A stretch of 64,000 nt of DNA from Hyalangium gracile (GTDB lineage: Bacteria; Myxococcota; Myxococcia; Myxococcales; Myxococcaceae): the NCBI RefSeq assembly GCF_020103725.1, contig NZ_JAHXBG010000014.1, positions 1 to 64,000 on the forward strand, written 5' to 3'. Positions 7,030 through 19,150 of the stretch are shown in pieces. A program made the position numbers and the translations under genes. The first letter of the stretch is position 1; every line of letters starts with the position of its first letter. Under the pieces are notes generated by a model. It worked only from the letters and a program-made list of their open reading frames with translations. It ran no database searches and had not been told where the DNA came from.

Positions 7030-7127
7030 GAGAAGCCCCCCCTCACTCCGTGGAGGACCTCACGTTAGAGCAGCGCAGCCCTCAGCGGCGACGACGCTCC
7101 ATGTCGGTCAGGCTGCCTCGAGCGAAA

Positions 7128-7146
7128 CCCGGGCGCCATGCCCGGG
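7128..7146 (-). terminator. GC-rich hairpin after chemosensory operon
   Basis: Perfect 7-bp arms CCCGGGC and GCCCGGG flank a 5-base loop. The hairpin lies 8 bases beyond the stop of the CheA-like gene and is followed in the minus direction by only three T residues. It is a plausible but weak intrinsic terminator. Confidence 0.4.
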
Positions 7147-7154
7147 CGCCGGGC

Positions 7155-9734
7155 TCACCCAGGCAGCAGCTGGCGGACGAGCTCCAGCAGCTTGCCGCGC
7201 TCCACCTCGCGCTTGACGATGTAGCCGTCCGCGCCAGCCTCGAGGCCCTCGGCCCGCTCCTCGGGGCTGTCGAGCGAGGTGACGAGGATGACGGGCGTCC
7301 GGTTGAGCGTCGGGTGCGCGCGGATGCGCCGCGTGAGCCCCACGCCATCCAGCCGCGGCATCTGCCAGTCGCTGACCACGAGCTGGCAGGGCGTGCGCTC
7401 CAGCACCTCCCAGGCCTCCTCGCCGTCCGAGGCGGTGACCACCGGATAGCCGGCGATCTCCAGCAGGGACTTCATGGCGAAGCGCGTGGTGAGCGCGTCG
7501 TCCGTCACCAGGATGCGCGGGCGGCGGATCTCGCCCGTGACGGAGCGCGTGCTCGGCGAGGCGGCGCGCAACAGCTCGGGCGCGTTGAGCACCGGCACCA
7601 GGCGGCCATCGTCCAGCACGGCCGCTCCGGCCAGGTGCGCCACACCCTTGAGGTGCGGCCCCAGCGCGCGGACGACGATCTCCTGCTGCCCCACCACCTC
7701 GTCGATGGCGAAGAGCACCCGGTCCTTACCGAGCGTCAGCAGCATCACCGTCTGCATCTTCCCGTTCTCGAGCGCCAGCGGCAGCCGGGGCAGACCGATG
7801 GCCTCCGCCAGCGAGAGGAAGACGAGCTGTTCGTCATCCACCCGCGCCATCACGCGGCCCGCCACCGTGCCCACGGCATCCGGGGCCAGGCGGAACACGC
7901 GCTGCACCATGTCCGAGGGGACGGCGACGATGGAGGTGCCCACGCGCACCAGCAGCCCCAGCGCGGAGGCCAGCGAGAGCGGCAGATCGACGACGAAGCG
8001 CGTGCCCTGCCCCGGCGTATACGTGACGTCCACCGCGCCCTGGAGGCGCTGGGCCGTGGCCAGCACCACGTCCAGGCCCACGCCGCGTCCGGACGTCTCC
8101 GTCACCTGATCGCGGGTGGAGAAGCCGGGCTGGAAGATGAGCCGCGCCGCCTGCGCGTCCGTGAGCTTGGCCGCGGCGTCCGCCGTCAGCAGCCCGCGCT
8201 TGACGGCCGTGGCCCGCACCCGATCCGGGCTCAGCCCCCCGCCGTCATCCTCCACGATGACCGCGACGCGGGTGCCCCGGGACTCCACGCGCACCCACAG
8301 CCGGCCCTTCTCGGACTTGCCCGCCTGACGCCGGTCCTGCGGCGACTCGATGCCGTGGTCGATGGCGTTGCGCACCAGGTGGAGCAGCGGATCCTTCAGC
8401 GCGTCCAGGATGCGGCGATCCAGCCGCACGTCTCCGCCCACGACGAACAGATCCACCTGCTTGCTCAGCCGCGCGCTCACCTCGCGCACCGTGCGCCGCA
8501 GCGGCTCGAGCACCTGGAGGGCCGGCACCATGCGCAGATCGCGCAGATCGTCGCGCACCACCTGGGCCACCAGGTTGAGCTGCTCACCCTCGCGAGTGCT
8601 GTCCTTCAGCAGCTCCACCAGTCGCTTCTGCATGCCGCGCAGATTGACGACGCCGGCCCGCAGCGGCTCCAGCGCCTCGCCGCCGCCCGTCAGGGACAGC
8701 TGCGACGCGGAGCGCTCCAGGTGCACGATGGTGTCGTGCGTGTTGTCGAGCAGATCCCTCAGGGCGTCGGTCCGGCGCGCCTGCAGGGCACGGCCCGCGA
8801 TCAGGTGCTCCACCTGGAGCCCCAGCGACTCCAGCGTCTTCACCGAGACGCGCACCGCCTGATCGACGCCACCCTTGGCCTCGGCCGCCGCCGCGGGCGC
8901 TCCGGCCGCCTCACTGGCCGCGCGCAGCGCATTGGCCGCCTTCTTCGTCGGCTCGGGGACGGGCTCGGGCTCCGGCTCCCGGGGCGGGGGCTCGGGCGCC
9001 TTGGGCGCGGCGGCGGGAGGCTCGGGCGTCGCCGGGGTGAGCGCGCCCCGCAGCTCCACCAGCAGGCCGGTGAGATCCGACGCCGCGATGCTCGCGCCAT
9101 CCCCCGGCTGCTCCATCTTCGCGAAGCCCGCCACCATCCGGTCGGCGAGCGGCGAGATGTGTGTCTCCTGGGCCGCCTCGGCGGTGATCTTGATCGAGCG
9201 CGCCAGCGCCACCGCCGTCCGCACGGTGTCCTCGCGGTCCGGCACGTTCGGCGAGCACAGCGCGATCAGCGCCGCCTCGAGCTTCTCCAGCACGCCCAGC
9301 GCGTCCTTGCGGAAGCGCTCGCCCGGCGACGGCTTCGTCTTGCCACTGGCCTGGTGCCCGAGCGCGGCCAGCAGCGACTCCAGGCCGTCGATGGCCGGCT
9401 CCTCGCCCGCGTCCCCCAGCCCCAGCGCCAGCTCGATGGAGGACAGCCCGCGCAGGGTGACTTCCACCACCTCGCGCGGCAGCCGATCGTCCGGGCGATA
9501 CTTCGCCAGCCCATCCTCGATGGCGTGGACGACCTGCTCGATCTCCGAGAGGCCCAGGCTCGCGGCGGAGCCCTTCAGGCTGTGCACCAGCCGCTTCAGC
9601 GACGGGAGCAGATCCGGGTCCCGCCCGTCTGGCTCTTCCTCGAGCCCGAGCACCTTCGTGCCGATGGCCTGGATCTGCTCTCGCGTCTCCGCGGAGAAGA
9701 TGGGCCAGATGCTCTTGAGCACCTGCGGGTCCAT
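7155..9734 (-). CDS. Hybrid chemotaxis-type histidine kinase CheA with C-terminal receiver
   Basis: An 859-residue CheA-family kinase. Residues 1-105 are an Hpt domain with phospho-acceptor His51 in VHSLKGSAASLG. A helical stretch (about 150-250) may be a second, degenerate Hpt-like unit. It is followed by a Pro/Glu-rich linker, a dimerisation region, and the ATPase domain with LLHLVRNAIDHGIESP, VEDDGGGLSP and TSGRGVGLDVV. A CheW-like coupling domain comes next, then a receiver with acidic pair VTDDA, phospho-acceptor Asp in VVSDWQMPRLDG and a conserved Lys near the end. CheA fused to a receiver is typical of FrzE and WspE. It is the last gene of a six-gene operon with short gaps. It probably phosphorylates its own receiver and the free receiver encoded two genes upstream. 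Confidence 0.92.
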   Translation of the reverse strand: MDPQVLKSIWPIFSAETREQIQAIGTKVLGLEEEPDGRDPDLLPSLKRLVHSLKGSAASLGLSEIEQVVHAIEDGLAKYRPDDRLPREVVEVTLRGLSSIELALGLGDAGEEPAIDGLESLLAALGHQASGKTKPSPGERFRKDALGVLEKLEAALIALCSPNVPDREDTVRTAVALARSIKITAEAAQETHISPLADRMVAGFAKMEQPGDGASIAASDLTGLLVELRGALTPATPEPPAAAPKAPEPPPREPEPEPVPEPTKKAANALRAASEAAGAPAAAAEAKGGVDQAVRVSVKTLESLGLQVEHLIAGRALQARRTDALRDLLDNTHDTIVHLERSASQLSLTGGGEALEPLRAGVVNLRGMQKRLVELLKDSTREGEQLNLVAQVVRDDLRDLRMVPALQVLEPLRRTVREVSARLSKQVDLFVVGGDVRLDRRILDALKDPLLHLVRNAIDHGIESPQDRRQAGKSEKGRLWVRVESRGTRVAVIVEDDGGGLSPDRVRATAVKRGLLTADAAAKLTDAQAARLIFQPGFSTRDQVTETSGRGVGLDVVLATAQRLQGAVDVTYTPGQGTRFVVDLPLSLASALGLLVRVGTSIVAVPSDMVQRVFRLAPDAVGTVAGRVMARVDDEQLVFLSLAEAIGLPRLPLALENGKMQTVMLLTLGKDRVLFAIDEVVGQQEIVVRALGPHLKGVAHLAGAAVLDDGRLVPVLNAPELLRAASPSTRSVTGEIRRPRILVTDDALTTRFAMKSLLEIAGYPVVTASDGEEAWEVLERTPCQLVVSDWQMPRLDGVGLTRRIRAHPTLNRTPVILVTSLDSPEERAEGLEAGADGYIVKREVERGKLLELVRQLLPG

Positions 9735-9743
9735 ACGCCGTGC

Positions 9744-10319
9744 CTATCCTCGCCTCTCGGCGGACGGAGTGCCGAGCTGGGCCACATCGAGCACCGTCAG
9801 CCGGTCCGGAGTGAGGTGGAGGAAGGGGCCCGCGGGAGGCGCGGACAGCGTGGCGCGCAGCAGCTCCTGCCGCCCGTCCACCTGCTCCGCGGCGATGCCA
9901 AAGGCATCCCCCAGCAGATCCACCACCACCACCTTGCCCAGGTCGGACATGCCGCCGCCTTCCAGCCCGAGCAGCTGGCGCAGATCCAGCACCGGCACCA
10001 CGCGCGAGCGAGAGACGAGCGCCCCCATCACGTGGCGGGGCGCGCCGGGCAGCGCGCACAGCCCGCGCGACTCCAGCACGTGATCCACCTGCTCGATGGG
10101 CACCGCGTAGCGCTCGCCACCCACGCGGAAGGTGAGCACGGTGATGACCGCGGGGCGAACCTCGTCGCGAGAGCTCGCCAGCCCGCGCGCGCGGGCCGAC
10201 AGCACCTCGCGGCGCTTCTCGGGCGACACCTGCGCGTTCTCGATGAGCGCGCGCGCGTCATCCAGCCGCTGGAGGAGGCCGGAGTAGTCGATCTCGACCT
10301 TGGCGTCTTCCGTGGACAT
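9744..10319 (-). CDS. CheW-like coupling protein
   Basis: A 191-residue CheW-domain protein. The fold begins near residue 60 with VITVLTFRVGGERYAVPIEQV, followed by GAPRHVMGALVSRSRVVPVLDLRQLLGL and a GIAAEQVDG segment, all standard CheW landmarks. The first 55 residues form a helical extension not found in minimal CheW. It should link the methyl-accepting protein to the CheA hybrid kinase at the membrane array. It lies 9 bp from cheA and 7 bp from the receiver gene. This is the second of two different CheW proteins in the operon. Confidence 0.9.
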   Translation of the reverse strand: MSTEDAKVEIDYSGLLQRLDDARALIENAQVSPEKRREVLSARARGLASSRDEVRPAVITVLTFRVGGERYAVPIEQVDHVLESRGLCALPGAPRHVMGALVSRSRVVPVLDLRQLLGLEGGGMSDLGKVVVVDLLGDAFGIAAEQVDGRQELLRATLSAPPAGPFLHLTPDRLTVLDVAQLGTPSAERRG

Positions 10320-10326
10320 CCGTCGC

Positions 10327-10745
10327 TCAGCGGCCCGAGGGGCTCTTCACGGGGAGTTTCAGCAGCTCGCGCACCCGCTCACGCAGCTCGTCCACCGAGA
10401 CGGGCTTGTTGAGGAAGGCGCTGGCGCCCACCAGCCGTCCGCGCTGCCGGCTGGCCTCGTCCTTGAGCGAGGTGAGCAGGAGGAAGGGCGTGGCGTGCAG
10501 CGTGGAGTCGGCCCGCACCGCCGCGCACAGCGCGAAGCCGTCCATCTCCGGCATCTGCACGTCGGAGATGACCAGATCCGGCTTGATCTCGCGCGCCTTG
10601 GACAGGCCCTGCACGCCGTTGCCCGCTTCGAAGAACTGGAGCCCCCACCCCATCAGGTACACCTGCAGGAGGTTCGTGATCGTCTTGGTGTCCTCGACGA
10701 TCAAGACCTTCAGTGGTGCTCCCTTGGTCCCGGCCGTGTTCATAC

Positions 10746-10749
<4 letters not shown>
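10327..10749 (-). CDS. Single-domain response regulator, CheY-like
   Basis: A 140-residue stand-alone receiver. Landmarks are [15 protein letters not shown] (acidic pocket), phospho-acceptor Asp in [18 protein letters not shown], the conserved Ser/Thr in [11 protein letters not shown], and Lys in [12 protein letters not shown]. The ATG overlaps the stop of the upstream methyl-accepting gene by four bases (ATGA). No output domain is present, so it probably acts by protein contact as CheY does, or as a phosphate sink for the CheA hybrid. Its target is not evident in the window. Confidence 0.9.
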
Positions 10750-12377
<1,628 letters not shown>

Positions 12378-12403
12378 ATTGCCTCCCAGCTATCGCGAGC
12401 GCC

Positions 12404-13780
12404 CTACTGCGCCCCCTGCCAGCCCATCCGGTTCCTCGCGGCCAGCGCCTGACGCAGGCCTCCCGCCGTCATCGTCTCCACTCCCCGGAGCTGATGCTCG
12501 TCATCCAGTCCATCCAGCGCGCGCAGCGCGTTCTGCCGAGCCCGCTCCGCCTCCTCCCGCCGATTCAACCGCGTATAGAGCGTGACCAACGTAGCGTGGC
12601 CGAGCGCCATCTGCGGATCCAGATACAGTGCCTTTCGCACCAAATCCACCGCCCCGTTGAGGTTGCCCTTCGCCTCGGCGACCATCGCCAGCAGCAGGTA
12701 GGCCTCGGGCGACAGCTTGCGCGCCGCTTCCCGGGCCAGCTCCTCCGCCTTGTCGAACTTGCCCTCCCGCGCCGCCACCAGCGCCTGACGCAGCACGTCA
12801 TCACCGCCCGTGGAGGGAGTGGGACTGGGGGCGGGAGGAGGCTCGGGCGCCCTGGCCGGGGGAGCCGGCGCGGGCCGGGGCGGAGGCGGCGCCGGCTTGA
12901 GCTTGCGCAGCAGCTCCAGCTTCGCGCTCGACGTGGGCTCGGCGGGCAGCTCCGGGGCCGGCGCCGGCTTGACACGGGGGACACGCAGGACGGGAGAGCC
13001 CTGCACGTCGATCTGCTCCAGGCCCATGCCGTTGGTGAGGGGGATCTCCGCGGGCGCCAGGAAGAGCAGCCCGCCCGGGACGAGCGCGCTGATGAGCTTG
13101 GCCAGCACCTGCCGCACCAGCTCATGGGGGAAGTAGATGAGGACGTTGCGGCAGAAGACGGCGTCCTGCTCGCCCACCGGCGCCGCGTCGAGCACCAGGT
13201 TGTGGCGCTGGAACTCCACCGGCCGGCGCGCCTGGGAGTTGACCATCACCAGATCGCCCTGCGGCGTCAGGAAGCGCCGCTCCATGGAGGGCTCGATGCG
13301 CCGCACCGACCAGGGGCCATAGGTGGCGGCGCGAGCGCGCTGCAGCGAGCGCGCGGAGATGTCGCTGGCCGTCACCCGGATACGCTCCACCGGCAGGCCC
13401 GCGGCCAGCAGCGTCATCGCGATGCTGTAGGCCTCCTCGCCCGTGGCGCAGCCGGCGCTCCACACCCGGAACAGCCCGTCTTCCTTCTGGGCGGCGGCGC
13501 GCGCCAGCTCGCGCAGGTGCTCGGGGTGGCGGAAAAAGTACGTCTCTCCGATGACGGCGTACTCGATGAACGACTCGACGATGGCCGCCTCGCGCGCCAG
13601 CAGCTTCTGGAGGAAGGCGGCGATCTCCATCCCCCGAGCCTCGGCCGCCCGGGTGAGCGCGGTGCTCAGCGAGCGCCGCACACTGGAGGCCAGCGTCATG
13701 CCGCTGGCCTCGCGCAGCACGTTCTCGACCCGGCTGAGCGTGGCCTCATCGAGCGCGTCCGCTCGCGCTACCTCGCTCAC
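12404..13780 (-). CDS. CheR methyltransferase with C-terminal TPR repeats
   Basis: A 458-residue protein with an N-terminal helical CheR domain, then the SAM-dependent methyltransferase domain (GETYFFR, SAGCATGEEAYSIAM, CRNVLIYFPHELV), a Pro/Ala-rich linker (about 290-340), and two or three tetratricopeptide repeats (about 345-435). It should methylate glutamates of the neighbouring receptor. The start chosen is the GTG at 13780, which forms a four-base GTGA overlap with the upstream cheW and has GGAGGAG just before it; the open frame extends further upstream but would overlap cheW extensively. CheR with TPRs is the form seen in WspC, where the repeats aid partner binding. Confidence 0.9.
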   Translation of the reverse strand: MSEVARADALDEATLSRVENVLREASGMTLASSVRRSLSTALTRAAEARGMEIAAFLQKLLAREAAIVESFIEYAVIGETYFFRHPEHLRELARAAAQKEDGLFRVWSAGCATGEEAYSIAMTLLAAGLPVERIRVTASDISARSLQRARAATYGPWSVRRIEPSMERRFLTPQGDLVMVNSQARRPVEFQRHNLVLDAAPVGEQDAVFCRNVLIYFPHELVRQVLAKLISALVPGGLLFLAPAEIPLTNGMGLEQIDVQGSPVLRVPRVKPAPAPELPAEPTSSAKLELLRKLKPAPPPPRPAPAPPARAPEPPPAPSPTPSTGGDDVLRQALVAAREGKFDKAEELAREAARKLSPEAYLLLAMVAEAKGNLNGAVDLVRKALYLDPQMALGHATLVTLYTRLNRREEAERARQNALRALDGLDDEHQLRGVETMTAGGLRQALAARNRMGWQGAQ

Positions 13781-14340
13781 GTCTCCTCCGAGATCGCCAG
13801 GATGGCCGAGGTGCGCAGCAGCGGCCGCAGCCCGCCATCCGCCGTGCGACACAGGCCCGCCATCAGGCCCGTCGTGTCCCACGGGGAGCGCTCCTCGCCC
13901 TCGGCCCGATCCACCAGCAGCGGCGCCTCGACGATGTCCTGGACGTGGTCCACCAGCAGCGCCACCGTCCGGCTGCCGGAGCAGACCACCAGGTGCGCGT
14001 CCAGCGAGGGCTCGCGGCGCACGCCCATCAGCACCGCCAGATCCACGGCCAGGGCGGACACGCCCCGGTAGGTGAAGGCCCCCATCACCTGGGGAGGCGC
14101 GCCCGGCAGGGGCTGCATCTCCACCAGGCGGACCACCTCCTGCACGGAGTCGGAGGGCAACAGCACTTGTGTGCCAGCCACCTCCACGGTGAGGAAGAGC
14201 CCGGGGAGCCGGTGCTCACCTCCCAGGTGGACCAGTTCACGCCGCAGGCGCGTCAGCTCGTTCTCCAGCGAGAGCAGCCGCTGCTGGACCGACGCACGAC
14301 GCGCCAGGGCTTCCGCCGGAGTTGTAGGAGTTTCTGCCAT
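13777..14340 (-). CDS. CheW-like coupling protein, first gene of the operon
   Basis: A 187-residue CheW-family protein with an N-terminal coiled coil (RRASVQQRLLSLENELTRL). The coupling domain follows with LFLTVEVAGTQVLLPSDSV, GAPPQVMGAFTYRGVSALAVD and VALLVDHVQDIVEAP. The first ATG of the conserved protein (MAETPTTPAE) is at 14340; an in-frame TTG at 14409 would add 23 residues but is less likely. It is translationally coupled to cheR. Carrying two CheW proteins of different architecture matches Wsp-type systems (WspB and WspD). Confidence 0.85.
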   Translation of the reverse strand: MAETPTTPAEALARRASVQQRLLSLENELTRLRRELVHLGGEHRLPGLFLTVEVAGTQVLLPSDSVQEVVRLVEMQPLPGAPPQVMGAFTYRGVSALAVDLAVLMGVRREPSLDAHLVVCSGSRTVALLVDHVQDIVEAPLLVDRAEGEERSPWDTTGLMAGLCRTADGGLRPLLRTSAILAISEET

Positions 14341-14572
14341 CGGGGAGACCCCCCGGCGCACACGCACGGGTTGGCTCGAAACGTAGTCTGCCCGAAGGAG
14401 GACCGTCAATGCGGGCGAGAGGGCCTCTCTGCTTCCTCGCCTGCTCCAACCCCCCCGTCCGACCTGTTACGGTGGGTCCGCGAGCCCGATCGCGGAGTGC
14501 TCGCGGTTGTGGTTTGATGGGACGTGGGACAGCGGATGGAGGCCAGATGTCGTTTGGAGTCAGGGGGATGGA

Positions 14573-16597
14573 ATGATCAAGAGTGATGCTCCAGGCCCTG
14601 AGGCATCCGGGACACCGGGGGTGGATCCCCTCATCGGTCGTACCCTCAATGGTCGCTTCAGCATCACCGAGCCTATCGGCGTCGGCGGCATGGGCAAGGT
14701 GTACCGCGCCATGCAGGCCCCGCTGGATCGCGTCGTGGCCCTCAAGGTCCTCAACCCCAGCTTCCCGAGCACCAGGGACCCGGGCTTCCAGCAGCGCTTC
14801 CTGCGCGAGGCCTCCCTCACCTCCAAGTTGCGTCACCCCAACACGGTGACGGTGATCGACTACGGGCAGACCGACGACGGCATCTTCTACATCGCCATGG
14901 AGTACCTGGAGGGTAGGACGCTGGCCCAGGTGCTCGCCCAGACCGGTCCCCTGCCCTGGAGCCGGGTGATCGCGATCGTCCAGCAGGTGTGCCGCTCGCT
15001 GCGCGAGGCCCACGCCATGGGCATCGTCCACCGGGACCTGAAGCCGGCCAACATCATGCTGCTCAACGAGGCCGATCAGGATCTGGTGAAGGTCCTCGAC
15101 TTCGGCCTGGTGAAGTCCATCGGCCCGGGGGCGGAGGGCGAGAACGCCCCGCTCAGCCCGGAGATCACCCAGAGCGGCACCTTCCTGGGCTCGCCGCAGT
15201 ACATGGCGCCGGAGCAGGCGCGCAACGTGGCGGACGTGCGCAGCGACATCTACTCGCTGGGCGTGGTGATGTACCAGATGCTGCAGGGGCGCCCGCCGTT
15301 CGTCGCCCGCGATCACCTGGAGCTGATCTTCTCGCACTGCAAGGAGCCGCCTCCGCCCTTCAACTCGCTGCGGCCGCACATCCCCGTGCCGCACGACATC
15401 GAGGCGGTGGTGATGCGCTGCCTGGAGAAGGATCCGGCGCGGCGCTTCCAGTCGATGGACGAGATGCTGGAGGCGATGCGCACGGCCAACATGGCGGCCG
15501 GCGGCCACAGCGGCCTCTTCAAGCGCCCGGGCGGAGGCACGACGGGGCCGCACGCCTCGCCCCTGTTCGCCAGCGCTGGCGCGCCCGACACCAACGCCTC
15601 CACCCTGGCGCTGGACATCAGCGTGGAGGTGCCCGAGGCGGTGGCCAAGGCCCGCCGTCGCAGGCTGATGGGCATGGGGGCTCTCGCCGTCGGCGCGGTG
15701 GTCGTCGGGCTGACGGCGACCGTGCTGCTGCTGAAGTCGCGAGATGCGGCGGTGCCGGCGCCGGTGACCGAGACCGTGGCGGTGGCTCCGGCCCCCGCGA
15801 CGCCTCCGCCCGCCACGCCCGAGCCCGCGCAGGCCGCGCCGCAGCAGGTCCGCTTCCGCCTGATGAGCGAGCCCACCGGCGCGCGCGTCTACTACCAGGG
15901 CAAGGAGCGCGGCACGACGCCGTTCGTGCTGGAGATCCCCGCGGGCGGAGACGGCACCGTCACCGCCGAGCTCACCTTCGCGCTCGAGGGCTACCAGACC
16001 GAGAAGGTCATCACCGGTGGCTCGGGGGACGTGGTGCTCTCGCAGAAGCTCCAGAAGCGCCGGGGCGGCTCGGGCGGAGGCTCGTCCAAGGTCGAGTTCG
16101 CCAGCGCGCGCGGCACCGACAGCCTGGAGCCCGCCACCGCGATGCTGGATCCGGCCGAGTCCCTCGTCCCCTCGAGCCCTCCTCCGGGGAAGGCCTCGGC
16201 GTCGCCGGGGAAGGCCTCGGCGGCGGATGATGGCGCGGACTCGGGTGGAAAGCTCACGGTGCCAGGGCTGCCGGCGGGCGTACTGGCCGCGGCGAACAGC
16301 AACATGCCCATGCCCTACGGCCAGGGTATGAGCCGTCCGGAGCAGCTCGAGGGCAAGGAGATCACCTATACCCGCGAGGCGCTCGCGGCGAAGGTGCAGG
16401 GCATGATGGTGGTGAAGTGCACCATCACCCGCCAGGGCCGGGTGGAGAACTGCCGCACCATCAAGCCGGTGCCGCACATGGAGACGGCCGTGCTGGATGC
16501 GCTGAGGTCGCGCGTCTACAAGCCCATCCTCTACAAGGGCCAGCCGGTCGCCGTGGACTACGTCTTCAACATCAAGCTGCAGCTGCCGCGGCGCTGA
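14573..16597 (+). CDS. Transmembrane Ser/Thr protein kinase with PEGA and TonB-C-like domains
   Basis: A 674-residue protein. Residues 30-305 form an intact eukaryotic-like kinase: G-loop GVGGMGKVY, Lys58 in VVALKVL, HRDLKPAN at 153-160, DFG at 176-178 and APEQ at 212-215. A Pro/Ala-rich juxtamembrane region leads to one membrane helix at about 366-387. Outside the membrane are a PEGA domain (about 426-496, with SEPTGARVYYQGKERGTTPF) and a C-terminal domain (about 590-672) that reads like a TonB C-terminal or energy-transducer domain, with MMVVKCTITRQGRVENCRTI and LDALRSRVYKPILYKGQPV. The start is the ATG at 14573 with AGGGGG upstream. It may sense an envelope state through the outer domains and signal inward. 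The gene is divergent from the chemosensory operon. Confidence 0.88.
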   Translation: MIKSDAPGPEASGTPGVDPLIGRTLNGRFSITEPIGVGGMGKVYRAMQAPLDRVVALKVLNPSFPSTRDPGFQQRFLREASLTSKLRHPNTVTVIDYGQTDDGIFYIAMEYLEGRTLAQVLAQTGPLPWSRVIAIVQQVCRSLREAHAMGIVHRDLKPANIMLLNEADQDLVKVLDFGLVKSIGPGAEGENAPLSPEITQSGTFLGSPQYMAPEQARNVADVRSDIYSLGVVMYQMLQGRPPFVARDHLELIFSHCKEPPPPFNSLRPHIPVPHDIEAVVMRCLEKDPARRFQSMDEMLEAMRTANMAAGGHSGLFKRPGGGTTGPHASPLFASAGAPDTNASTLALDISVEVPEAVAKARRRRLMGMGALAVGAVVVGLTATVLLLKSRDAAVPAPVTETVAVAPAPATPPPATPEPAQAAPQQVRFRLMSEPTGARVYYQGKERGTTPFVLEIPAGGDGTVTAELTFALEGYQTEKVITGGSGDVVLSQKLQKRRGGSGGGSSKVEFASARGTDSLEPATAMLDPAESLVPSSPPPGKASASPGKASAADDGADSGGKLTVPGLPAGVLAAANSNMPMPYGQGMSRPEQLEGKEITYTREALAAKVQGMMVVKCTITRQGRVENCRTIKPVPHMETAVLDALRSRVYKPILYKGQPVAVDYVFNIKLQLPRR

Positions 16598-17342: not shown

Positions 17343-18257
17343 TCACGTACGGCAGGCCCGGGCCCGCCGCCGCGCCCGGAACATCCACATGGACAGCAGC
17401 ACGCCGGGCAGGAACGAGCCAGGGGCCGCCGCGCAGTTCGTCCCCGCGCTCTGGCCGGACAGGTTCTTGCTGGACACGCCGATCTCGGTGCACTGGGTGG
17501 GCGGAAGGCCCCGCGGATAGGTGTCGCAGAAGCCCGCGGCGCTGCCGGCGTCGATGACGCGCTTCTGGGTCTCTCCGATGGGCGCGGAGGCCTCCATGGT
17601 GGACAGCGGCTCGAACACGTGGTCCAGCCCCATGGCGTGGCCGATCTCGTGGGTCATCGTGTTCTGGATGTCCGTGGCCACGCACTCCGTCGAGGGCAGC
17701 CCCTCGCAGATCGGCGAGCTGACGACGGTGAAGAGGAAGCCCAGGTTGCCGCCCGGCTGCGAGGCGTTGAGCTCGATGTCCGCGTCCAGGATGATGCCGT
17801 TCTTGAAGCTGAACGTGGTGGTGGTGAGCCCGATCGTCAGGTCGCCGTGCTCCCAGCAGGAGTAGTCATTGGCGCACGTCTCGGCCTCGATGCAGGGATC
17901 GTCATAGGGGACGACGTCCGAGCAGGCCGTCTCCCGGAAGGTGACGACGTTCTGGTTCTCCCCGTCCACGACGTAGCCCACGGCGGGGCGGCTCACGTCC
18001 GGGCCACGGACGAAGGTGAAGTCGCTGCACGTGGCCGACAGCGTGCGCCACGTGTCGAAGGAGGCGTCGATCGCGGGGAACTCGGTGTCCCGCGGCGTGC
18101 GGAGGCTGCCGGCCGAGTCGATGTGGTAGACGAACTCTCGACTGAGCCAGTTGAGGCACAGGGGCTTTCCGGGGACCACGGTGCGCCGGTACACCTGGGC
18201 GCTCGCGGCGGGCGCCACGAACAGGACGGCCAGCAGGAGCAGCCCGCGCGGGCTCAC
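17343..18257 (-). CDS. Secreted matrixin-like metalloprotease, MYXO-CTERM anchored (paralog A)
   Basis: A 304-residue exported protein. The signal peptide runs through GLLLLAVLFVAPAASAQ. The catalytic domain starts almost at once (WLSREFVYHID, then SFDTWRTL), with zinc motif THEIGHAMGLDH (HExxHxxGxxH) and a Met-turn candidate STMEAS, as in matrixins (M10 type). No propeptide with a cysteine switch is visible. Eight or more Cys suggest disulfides. The C-terminus (NCAAAPGSF, a hydrophobic stretch, then an Arg cluster) resembles the MYXO-CTERM tail removed by myxosortases. The GTG start at 18257 overlaps the stop of paralog B by four bases. The paralogs share SxNTMTHEIGH-type and CANxYxCW motifs, so they arose by tandem duplication. 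Confidence 0.82.
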   Translation of the reverse strand: MSPRGLLLLAVLFVAPAASAQVYRRTVVPGKPLCLNWLSREFVYHIDSAGSLRTPRDTEFPAIDASFDTWRTLSATCSDFTFVRGPDVSRPAVGYVVDGENQNVVTFRETACSDVVPYDDPCIEAETCANDYSCWEHGDLTIGLTTTTFSFKNGIILDADIELNASQPGGNLGFLFTVVSSPICEGLPSTECVATDIQNTMTHEIGHAMGLDHVFEPLSTMEASAPIGETQKRVIDAGSAAGFCDTYPRGLPPTQCTEIGVSSKNLSGQSAGTNCAAAPGSFLPGVLLSMWMFRARRRARACRT

Positions 18258-19150
18258 GAGCGCCCTCCCCGACGGCGACGGGCGAGCAGCAGCGCCCACC
18301 CGGCCAGCGCTGGCAGCCACGCCTCGGCCCCGACGGAGGCGCACCCGACCTGGGCCTTGCGGCCGAGGTTCGCGTCCGACGTGGGATGGACGCAGGCCTG
18401 GCTGGCCATGCCCTTCGGGTAGGCCTCCGAGCACACGAAGTCGCGCGAGCCCGGGTCGATGCTCCGCTTGGAGATCTCACCTGTCTGCGCCCGAGGGTTC
18501 ATCGTGGAGCCCACGGCGTTGGTGTGGTCCAGGCCGACGAAGTGGCCGATCTCGTGCGTCATGGTGTTCTGCACGTCCGTGGACACGCAGTTGGTGGTCA
18601 GCGCCGGCGGGTTGCAGAGCGGACCATCCGAGGTGGTGAAGTAGAAGGCCACCGAGTTCAGCTCGATGTCCGAGTCGTAGATGATGCCGGACTTCTCGTC
18701 GTAGGTGGTGAGGGTGACGGCGATCGTCCCGAGATCGTTGTCCCAGCAGTCATACTCGTTGGCGCACGACTCCTCTTCCCAGCACGGATCATTGGCCGGC
18801 ACGATGTTGGTGTCGCCGCAGCGCCGGGTGCGGAAGAGCACCAGGTTCCGGTTGTCGCCGTTGACCACGTAGCCCACCTTGCGGTCGTCGACGACGCCCC
18901 CCTCCTCGAGGGACAGGTTGCCGCACTGGTCGAAGATCGTCCGCCAGCCCTGGAACGAGCGCCGGACGGCGTCGAACTCGGAGGCCTGGGGCCTCGTCTG
19001 CGGGTTGCCCGCGCTGCTCTGGTACCAGGTGATCTTCGGCACCGTCCAATAGAGGCACTGCGTCGAGGGATCTCCCGCCTCGACGCGGCTGCGGACATAG
19101 GGAGCCGACTGGCCCAGCGAGAGGGCCAGCATCAACGCCGCGATCTTCAC
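18254..19150 (-). CDS. Secreted matrixin-like metalloprotease, MYXO-CTERM anchored (paralog B)
   Basis: A 298-residue protein with a short signal peptide (MKIAALMLALSLGQSAP). Its catalytic domain aligns by eye with paralog A along its length: EFDAVRRSFQGWRTIFDQC, KVGYVVNGDNRNLVLFRTRR, SCANEYDCW, IIYDSDIELN, and zinc motif THEIGHFVGLDH with Met-turn STMNPRAQ. The tail QVGCASVGAEAWLPALAGWA ending in RRRRGG is a MYXO-CTERM signal: Cys, membrane stretch, Arg cluster. Its ATG overlaps the stop of the companion gene by four bases. It probably acts at the cell surface on proteins; the substrate is unknown. Confidence 0.83.
   Translation of the reverse strand: MKIAALMLALSLGQSAPYVRSRVEAGDPSTQCLYWTVPKITWYQSSAGNPQTRPQASEFDAVRRSFQGWRTIFDQCGNLSLEEGGVVDDRKVGYVVNGDNRNLVLFRTRRCGDTNIVPANDPCWEEESCANEYDCWDNDLGTIAVTLTTYDEKSGIIYDSDIELNSVAFYFTTSDGPLCNPPALTTNCVSTDVQNTMTHEIGHFVGLDHTNAVGSTMNPRAQTGEISKRSIDPGSRDFVCSEAYPKGMASQACVHPTSDANLGRKAQVGCASVGAEAWLPALAGWALLLARRRRGGRS

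Follow-up and report, generated by a model that had tools for sequence, protein, structure and literature searches.

A Myxococcaceae Ser/Thr kinase with a TonB C-terminal domain: a candidate reader of outer-membrane transporters

What could a Ser/Thr protein kinase read by means of a TonB C-terminal domain? The question is raised by a gene in a 64,000-nucleotide stretch of Hyalangium gracile DNA (contig NZ_JAHXBG010000014.1, positions 1 to 64,000, here called the window), whose product joins a kinase domain, a single membrane helix, a PEGA-like domain and a TonB C-terminal (TonB_C) domain. To our knowledge, few Myxococcaceae Ser/Thr kinases have a known input, and the architecture of this one names a concrete candidate, the TonB box of outer-membrane transporters. 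We propose that the protein is a trans-envelope kinase that docks through its TonB domain on such transporters and reports their state; docking and signalling are the steps that we infer, and we give this reading an even chance. Were it true, the outer membrane would be sensed by a protein kinase without an intermediary, which in Myxococcus xanthus could couple motility and development to what the cell takes up or secretes. Each member of the Myxococcaceae has roughly a hundred Ser/Thr kinases (PMC7694542).

The gene is an open frame from an ATG at 14573 to a stop codon at 16595-16597; purine-rich AGGGGGAT sits just 5' of the ATG, and the N-terminus of the protein is also present in relatives. 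Judged by its sequence, the protein is a Hanks-type kinase with intact catalytic motifs and predicted activity. Pfam matches Pkinase (PF00069) to residues 31-298 (E 9.9e-49, 166.5 bits against a cut-off of 31.7), and the catalytic motifs, namely the glycine loop, the VALK lysine, HRDLKPAN and DFG, are retained in 22/22 sequences of an alignment (the window protein and 21 relatives, from 22 genomes); the comparison included PknB, the nearest solved structure to the kinase domain (3.5e-55). Because one helix near residues 364-387 follows KARRRR, the kinase should lie inside the cell, with both C-terminal domains, PEGA-like and TonB, on the periplasmic side.

The C-terminal domain is a true TonB_C domain, its fold being taken from a predicted model. 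TonB_C (PF03544) matches residues 596-667 in Pfam (E 7.1e-11, 42.9 bits against a cut-off of 24.6), the NCBIfam model tonB_Cterm (TIGR01352) scores 37.3 bits against 27.1, and when the 118 C-terminal residues are run against the PDB sequences with phmmer, E. coli TonB comes out on top (E 2.8e-5). An AlphaFold2 model of residues 424-674, built from 22 sequences, contains two ordered domains with disorder between them; blocks of the predicted local distance difference test (pLDDT) are mostly 84-94, and mostly 84-92 over the TonB_C domain, and the relative placement of the two domains is undefined (predicted template modelling score, pTM, 0.38). The second domain is closest to the FoxA-bound TonB domain 6i97_D (Z 11.2, root-mean-square deviation 2.1 over 88 residues), with further matches to 1u07_A (Z 10.3) and the BtuB-bound 2gsk_B (Z 9.7), so that the TonB structures near the model include complexes with the receptors FoxA (6i97), BtuB (2gsk) and FhuA (2grx). 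The PEGA-like domain is modelled in a transthyretin-like arrangement, with matches to 5aq0 (Z 8.7) and to the N-terminal extension of a SusC-type receptor, 9hfj (Z 8.6); these fit a PEGA-like domain, barely exceed what models without a clear match attain (Z of 7 to 8), and speak to fold rather than to function. The profile searches, the matches of relatives and the predicted fold together rule out that the C-terminal domain belongs to another family or matches by chance. The sequence-only reading, which had described an intact intracellular kinase joined through one helix to PEGA and a domain resembling the TonB C-terminus, thus had the coordinates, the frame and the three domains right: kinase and TonB_C both exceed their cut-offs, the latter in Pfam and NCBIfam alike, and no other family matched the C-terminus. 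The middle domain is better called PEGA-like than PEGA.

This architecture is widely kept. Full-length relatives, aligned from query residues 1-5 to 673-674 at 64-100% identity, occur in at least 62 of the 147 genomes of the class (the genome of the window included), and at least four more genomes (G086, G092, G122 and G123) match at 52-54% identity; both counts are lower bounds, eight candidates having been scored per genome. Named relatives come from Hyalangium, Archangium, Corallococcus, Pyxidicoccus, Myxococcus and Citreicoccus. Two genomes (G119 and G068) hold the kinase in pieces at contig ends, and a third (G042) is matched in part in this count and is whole, as L066, in the alignment. 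A lineage-specific oddity or an assembly error was also considered, and is ruled out by the full-length matches. Of additional note, two records titled Comamonas sp. KCTC 72670 (L110 and L129) carry Myxococcaceae loci in full synteny; the name looks wrong or the assembly mixed.

Across the alignment, Pkinase and TonB_C are found at E <= 0.1 in 22/22 sequences and PEGA in 20/22. Mean pairwise identity is 0.84 in the kinase, 0.74 in the PEGA-like domain and 0.65 in TonB_C, and 0.28 and 0.29 in the two linkers. Invariant positions number 21 of 94 in the TonB_C domain against none of 83 in the neighbouring linker, and the cysteines C616 and C627 are invariant both in the 22 aligned kinases and in 8/8 aligned TonB paralogues. 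The ratio of nonsynonymous to synonymous substitution rates (dN/dS) of TonB_C is 0.14-0.41 in 6/6 pairs. For the second linker it is below 1 in 5/6 pairs, above that of TonB_C in four of the six and below it in the other two, the window's own pair among them. Since the neighbouring linker is lower in these two pairs, dN/dS is weaker than hoped as proof of constraint on TonB_C.

The kinship of the domain points to a classical Ton system. Only one of the 20 TonB_C places in this genome lies on a kinase frame (some of the 20 frames are cut by locus ends), so that the domain is not a common kinase tail. The closest match to the last 94 residues of the kinase is a canonical TonB of 242 residues encoded in the same genome (L072; 62.8% identity). 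A counterpart TonB, 59.6% identical (L082), belongs to a tonB-exbB-exbD-exbD set, its second ExbD identified by reading only, which is divergent from the gene for a 1071-residue Oar-like CarboxypepD_reg/barrel receptor. This gene content matches that described for ton-oar of M. xanthus, where Oar is needed for secretion of the protease PopC in the C-signal pathway, and where the TonB domains of ton-oar, MXAN_0276, MXAN_0820 and E. coli TonB bound the plug region of Oar in two-hybrid assays (PMC6434023). Because the TonB domain of the kinase is kin to that of the Oar-system TonB, Oar-type receptors would be the likeliest first partners to consider. Apart from the kinase, genome G000 has six frames of 840-1126 residues with TonB_C and Plug (C6:38622, C8:164604, C16:85918, C10:234121, C7:241818 and C9:290594), which are TonB domains fused to TonB-dependent receptors, and L019 carries an FHA-like N-terminus with a TonB_C/AgmX-type end (a label given by reading).

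The window kinase also belongs to a family whose members have the kinase, the helix and the PEGA-like part in common and differ at the C-terminus. The phylum search, within which kinase-TonB_C fusions were surveyed, covered 195 Myxococcota genomes. Type I, including the window protein, has the Oar-TonB-like domain at its end. Type II has a TonB_C domain of a different subfamily there and occurs as frames of 647-680 residues in 13 of 145 genomes and as one further frame of 449 residues; the kinase query matches at these 14 places too, and six were read as proteins (the kinases of L190, L191 and L192 are of this type). Its TonB_C domain is about 60% identical to that of a second canonical TonB (L195, 6708-7508), which adjoins ExbB, two ExbD and a receptor-sized open reading frame (ORF) of 1028 residues, the ExbD and the ORF recognised by reading. 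In the third type, TonB_C is absent and the protein ends in a short [YF]K[DE][DN]PY tail, commonly YKDDPYQ, as in the kinase of locus L193. In our trees, type II kinases stand beside most type I kinases and apart from three deeper type I rows, and the two kinds of TonB domain are split by a strongly supported branch; long branches were flagged, and the groups for the tree tests were named after the sequences had been seen. In the kinase-domain tree, grouping every type I kinase into a single clade is rejected (approximately unbiased test, p-AU 0.005), and a single origin of all kinase-borne TonB domains, tried as one clade in the TonB-domain tree, is rejected as well (p-AU 0.0165). Because of these two rejections, TonB ends were acquired or exchanged at least twice in the family. 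A single clade holding every TonB domain of type I is compatible with the data (p-AU 0.268), however, and more than one direction and number of swaps would fit.

The tail-type kinases show what such a scaffold may work with. In this genome, the gene for the L193 kinase (7089-8768, minus strand) overlaps by 4 nt that of a TPR-Plug-barrel receptor, the one tail-type partner receptor that was run against Pfam; a 414-residue ORF without a Pfam match and then a response regulator follow the receptor gene. A homologue of this receptor begins between about -13 and +30 nt relative to the kinase stop in 28/28 distinct tail-type kinases, whereas none of the eight TonB-ended kinases passed through the same filter has one. 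The filter took matches to the tail-type query that reach residue 545 or beyond at more than 300 bits, with at least 300 nt downstream, and retained 36 distinct kinases (28 tail and 8 TonB_C). Among those that it left out are L141, L135 and L150, where a receptor was seen and the match is broken or the contig ends, and L145, which matches to residue 516 and has 1612 nt downstream with no receptor seen. None of 11 type II loci matches three receptor queries, these 11 and the 51 type I loci including second cuts of the same genomes. Ahead of the plug, 28 of 30 receptor alignments (L193/L170 and L194/L182 being second cuts of the same loci) have a TonB-box-like VPYEE.VVTASR; L183 and L184 have none. 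The TPR domain of the partner receptor might bind the conserved [YF]K[DE][DN]PY tail. A receptor gene in cis and a TonB domain in the protein thus appear as alternatives, which is in our view the strongest argument for the family acting together with TonB-dependent receptors. We observed separately that a diverged type I kinase, L152 (1955-9061), has a TonB_C-CarboxypepD-Plug receptor fusion one gene away on the opposite strand.

Based on these findings, we suggest the following scheme. The kinase would face the cytoplasm, one helix would cross the inner membrane, and flexible linkers and the PEGA-like domain would span the periplasm. Like TonB itself, the TonB domain would then dock on TonB-dependent transporters of the outer membrane, one kind or several, at their TonB box, and docking should depend on whether a transporter presents its box and on competition with real TonB proteins. 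Docking may alter the spacing or clustering of kinases and with it their autophosphorylation, by which a signal passed through the helix would report transporter activity to cytoplasmic targets; the kinase itself would probably not be driven by ExbB/ExbD. More tentatively, and as a possibility that we hold with less confidence than docking itself, the kinase-helix-PEGA-like scaffold may form a Myxococcaceae class of transporter-coupled kinases, wired either by a downstream receptor gene plus tail or by a swapped TonB C-terminus drawn from at least two Ton systems. The paralogue-receptor pairs would give a second, independent route to test the transporter link. The suggestion of the sequence-only reading that such a kinase could read transporter state directly therefore gains indirect support, from the Oar-like TonB kinship, the repeated TonB ends and the receptor-coupled paralogues, while binding and signalling themselves keep the standing of a proposal. 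For peptidoglycan, the other input which that reading had named, we saw no such pointer, no test having been aimed at it.

Several points weigh against transporter docking. Binding, localisation and kinase activity are predictions, as would be any phenotype. PEGA (PF08308) scores below its cut-off in the window protein (E 0.0026, 18.1 bits against 20.8, residues 430-481), while that of the paralogous L193 kinase reaches 22.0 bits against the same cut-off. The 28 tail-type cases all come from one bacterial family and are non-independent. TonB-type domains occur also in the gliding proteins GltG and GltJ (PMC5349195, PMC3169522). A receptor gene beside the window kinase was sought and none was found: none of the genome's 25 Plug places is on the kinase contig, although Plug misses Oar-like receptors, which fall below its cut-off, and none of the 51 type I loci matches the three receptor queries (L152, with its receptor nearby, is outside the 51). 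The conserved neighbour is instead a chemosensory cluster, so that the input or the output could differ from what we propose.

That cluster lies on the opposite strand from the kinase gene; by Pfam, its methyl-accepting chemotaxis protein (MCP) carries HAMP, its CheR TPR and its CheA a receiver. Its order and lengths agree with the tables for M. xanthus Che4 (MXAN_2681-2686; PMC3945109). CheW is divergent from the kinase in all 40 testable distinct orthologues; a kinase match reaching residue 660 at more than 600 bits had defined 41, of which L098 is too short upstream. The filter left out L066, L112 and L114, which are partial or split and have CheW in all three cases, and the deeper relatives L111, L115 and L116, at whose loci no Che neighbours were seen; reading of the ORFs of L152 likewise revealed no Che4-like neighbours. 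Because of the divergent Che4-like cluster, its order and the 40/40 CheW genes, the window gene is probably the orthologue of MXAN_2680. On its 3' side lie a HAD hydrolase gene and a matrixin-like gene. Two adjacent ORFs at 17343-19150 (minus strand) carry HEIGH zinc-protease motifs by reading, of which only the second matches Pfam (Peptidase_M10), and both adjoin the kinase in many relatives' loci.

The neighbourhood favours the strongest of the other explanations: the TonB domain would be a general periplasmic binding or dimerising module on a non-transporter partner (a lipoprotein of the outer membrane, a protein bound to peptidoglycan or the chemoreceptor encoded next door), and the kinase would act in the Che4 motility circuit. 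The divergence from a Che4-like cluster, M. xanthus Che4 regulating S motility (PMC4320627), fits this explanation, as do the TonB-type ends of the gliding proteins and the lack of a receptor gene near the window kinase among the places and queries given above. Against it, the nearest kin that we found for the domain is a TonB belonging to a classical receptor system, and the NCBIfam model of the AgmX/PglI tail gives the window protein just 15.5 against a cut-off of 40. Moreover, the paralogues without TonB are coupled to receptors, and L115, L116 and L152 are without Che4-like neighbours. We therefore consider a non-transporter partner rather unlikely, though a serious contender.

Is the protein instead an energised transducer? 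Here it would be a TonB with a kinase for an N-terminus, harvesting ExbB/ExbD to power the transporter while the kinase regulates transport. The order of membrane helix and terminal domain is that of TonB, and canonical TonB relatives adjoin ExbBD. In E. coli, S-x3-H in the TonB helix is needed for coupling to ExbB/ExbD; 7/8 aligned TonB paralogues have it (L079 does not), whereas histidine is absent from the kinase helix in 22/22 aligned sequences. None of the eight MotA_ExbB places of the genome lies on the kinase contig, a search in which ExbD was not included. The absence of the histidine suggests docking without energisation. The objections are not decisive, since the canonical TonB of L195 also has no helix histidine and ExbBD may be encoded elsewhere. 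The argument that a kinase without the histidine is not energised is thus weakened by L195 and, for S-x3-H, by L079; because the L195 TonB stands beside ExbB and ExbD, the missing histidine is weak evidence against energisation, a further point to be set against our proposal. Overall, we find an energised kinase improbable.

Neutral domain shuffling, with TonB_C a structural spacer of no present sensing role, is similarly hard to credit: exchange of the C-terminal module shows that the scaffold tolerates several ends and the linker dN/dS is not clearly above that of TonB_C in every pair, but the 21/94 invariant positions against 0/83 in the linker, the low TonB_C dN/dS in 6/6 pairs, the long retention in the family and the fact that a domain of this one kind was recruited repeatedly speak against it.

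Table 1. Positions of the kinase gene, its domains and the associated loci. Positions are those of the window, except in the last row.
Feature	Position	Strand	Basis
Ser/Thr kinase - transmembrane helix - PEGA-like - TonB_C protein, 674 aa	14573..16597	+	Open frame, domain profiles
Kinase domain, residues 21-306	14633..15490	+	Pfam; PknB match
Single transmembrane helix, residues ~364-387, KARRRR just before	15662..15733	+	Hydropathy
PEGA-like beta domain, residues 424-497	15842..16063	+	Pfam below cut-off; pLDDT blocks 85-94
Variable linker, mostly disordered, residues 498-580	16064..16312	+	Model disorder and low identity
TonB C-terminal domain, residues 581-674	16313..16594	+	Pfam, NCBIfam, phmmer, predicted fold
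Cysteine pair C616, C627	16418..16453	+	Alignment
Intergenic region between kinase gene and divergent CheW gene	14341..14572	.	Adjoining ORFs; CheW conserved
Chemosensory cluster CheW-CheR(TPR)-MCP-CheY-CheW-CheA/receiver	7155..14340	-	Pfam; M. xanthus Che4 order
L193 kinase-receptor locus	L193 4573-8768; contig C18 about 71572-75767	- (kinase)	Pfam on receptor

Each domain of the protein is known, and the sequence-only reading was aware of no characterised example of the exact combination. This agrees with the literature that we searched, which contained no study of a kinase with PEGA and a TonB C-terminus, the main kinome paper (PMC2572974) lying outside it; descriptions of the receptor-coupled kinase paralogues were not found there either, no search having been aimed at kinase-receptor gene pairs. 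How, then, does the protein compare with systems already described? MXAN_2680 of M. xanthus is likewise divergent from its che4 operon, with a cluster of agreeing order and lengths, a likeness drawn from position and cluster tables rather than from the DK1622 sequence. An M. xanthus strain record (L112) has kinase residues 1-396 up to the contig end together with the cluster, as in the window. In the literature searched, MXAN_2680 is met only in a remark on a putative MrpC site between it and che4 (PMC4320627). A link between the kinase and Che4 targets, like one to Oar, would be conjectural at this stage. TonB1, from the Oar Ton system of M. xanthus, was compared through proteins of its size and context, not through the DK1622 sequence: these share the terminal domain at about 60% identity and the same cysteine pair. 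Unlike the window protein, they lack a kinase and a PEGA-like domain, and they have a long run of prolines, S-x3-H in their helix and adjoining exbB/exbD.

The nearest precedent for a cytosolic signalling domain, a helix and a TonB_C-type end in one protein is GltG (PglI), whose cytosolic domain is FHA (PMC3169522), and for GltJ (AgmX) a similar modular build of the TolA/TonB kind is reported (PMC3169522, PMC5349195). The FHA domain of GltG reads phosphorylation, whereas the window kinase is predicted to make it, and GltG and GltJ work with AglRQS in gliding. The window protein falls below the cut-off for the AgmX/PglI tail. PASTA kinases of the PknB or Stk1 type, to which the kinase domain is nearest, have in common with it a single helix and an extracytoplasmic part. 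They differ in that the window protein has no PASTA match in Pfam and scores 313.5 against a cut-off of 450 in the NF033483 model, over residues 21-316 alone. In the FecA-FecR-FecI system, too, the state of a TonB-dependent receptor is relayed over the periplasm to the cytoplasm, but by way of an STN domain and an anti-sigma factor; in our case a Ser/Thr kinase would take that place, and the L193 receptor is of the TPR-Plug-barrel kind without an STN match. If the class reading is true, these kinases would form an outer-membrane-to-cytoplasm phosphorylation route distinct from that of FecR and its anti-sigma mechanism, and among its TonB-bearing forms the window protein would be the one retained most widely.

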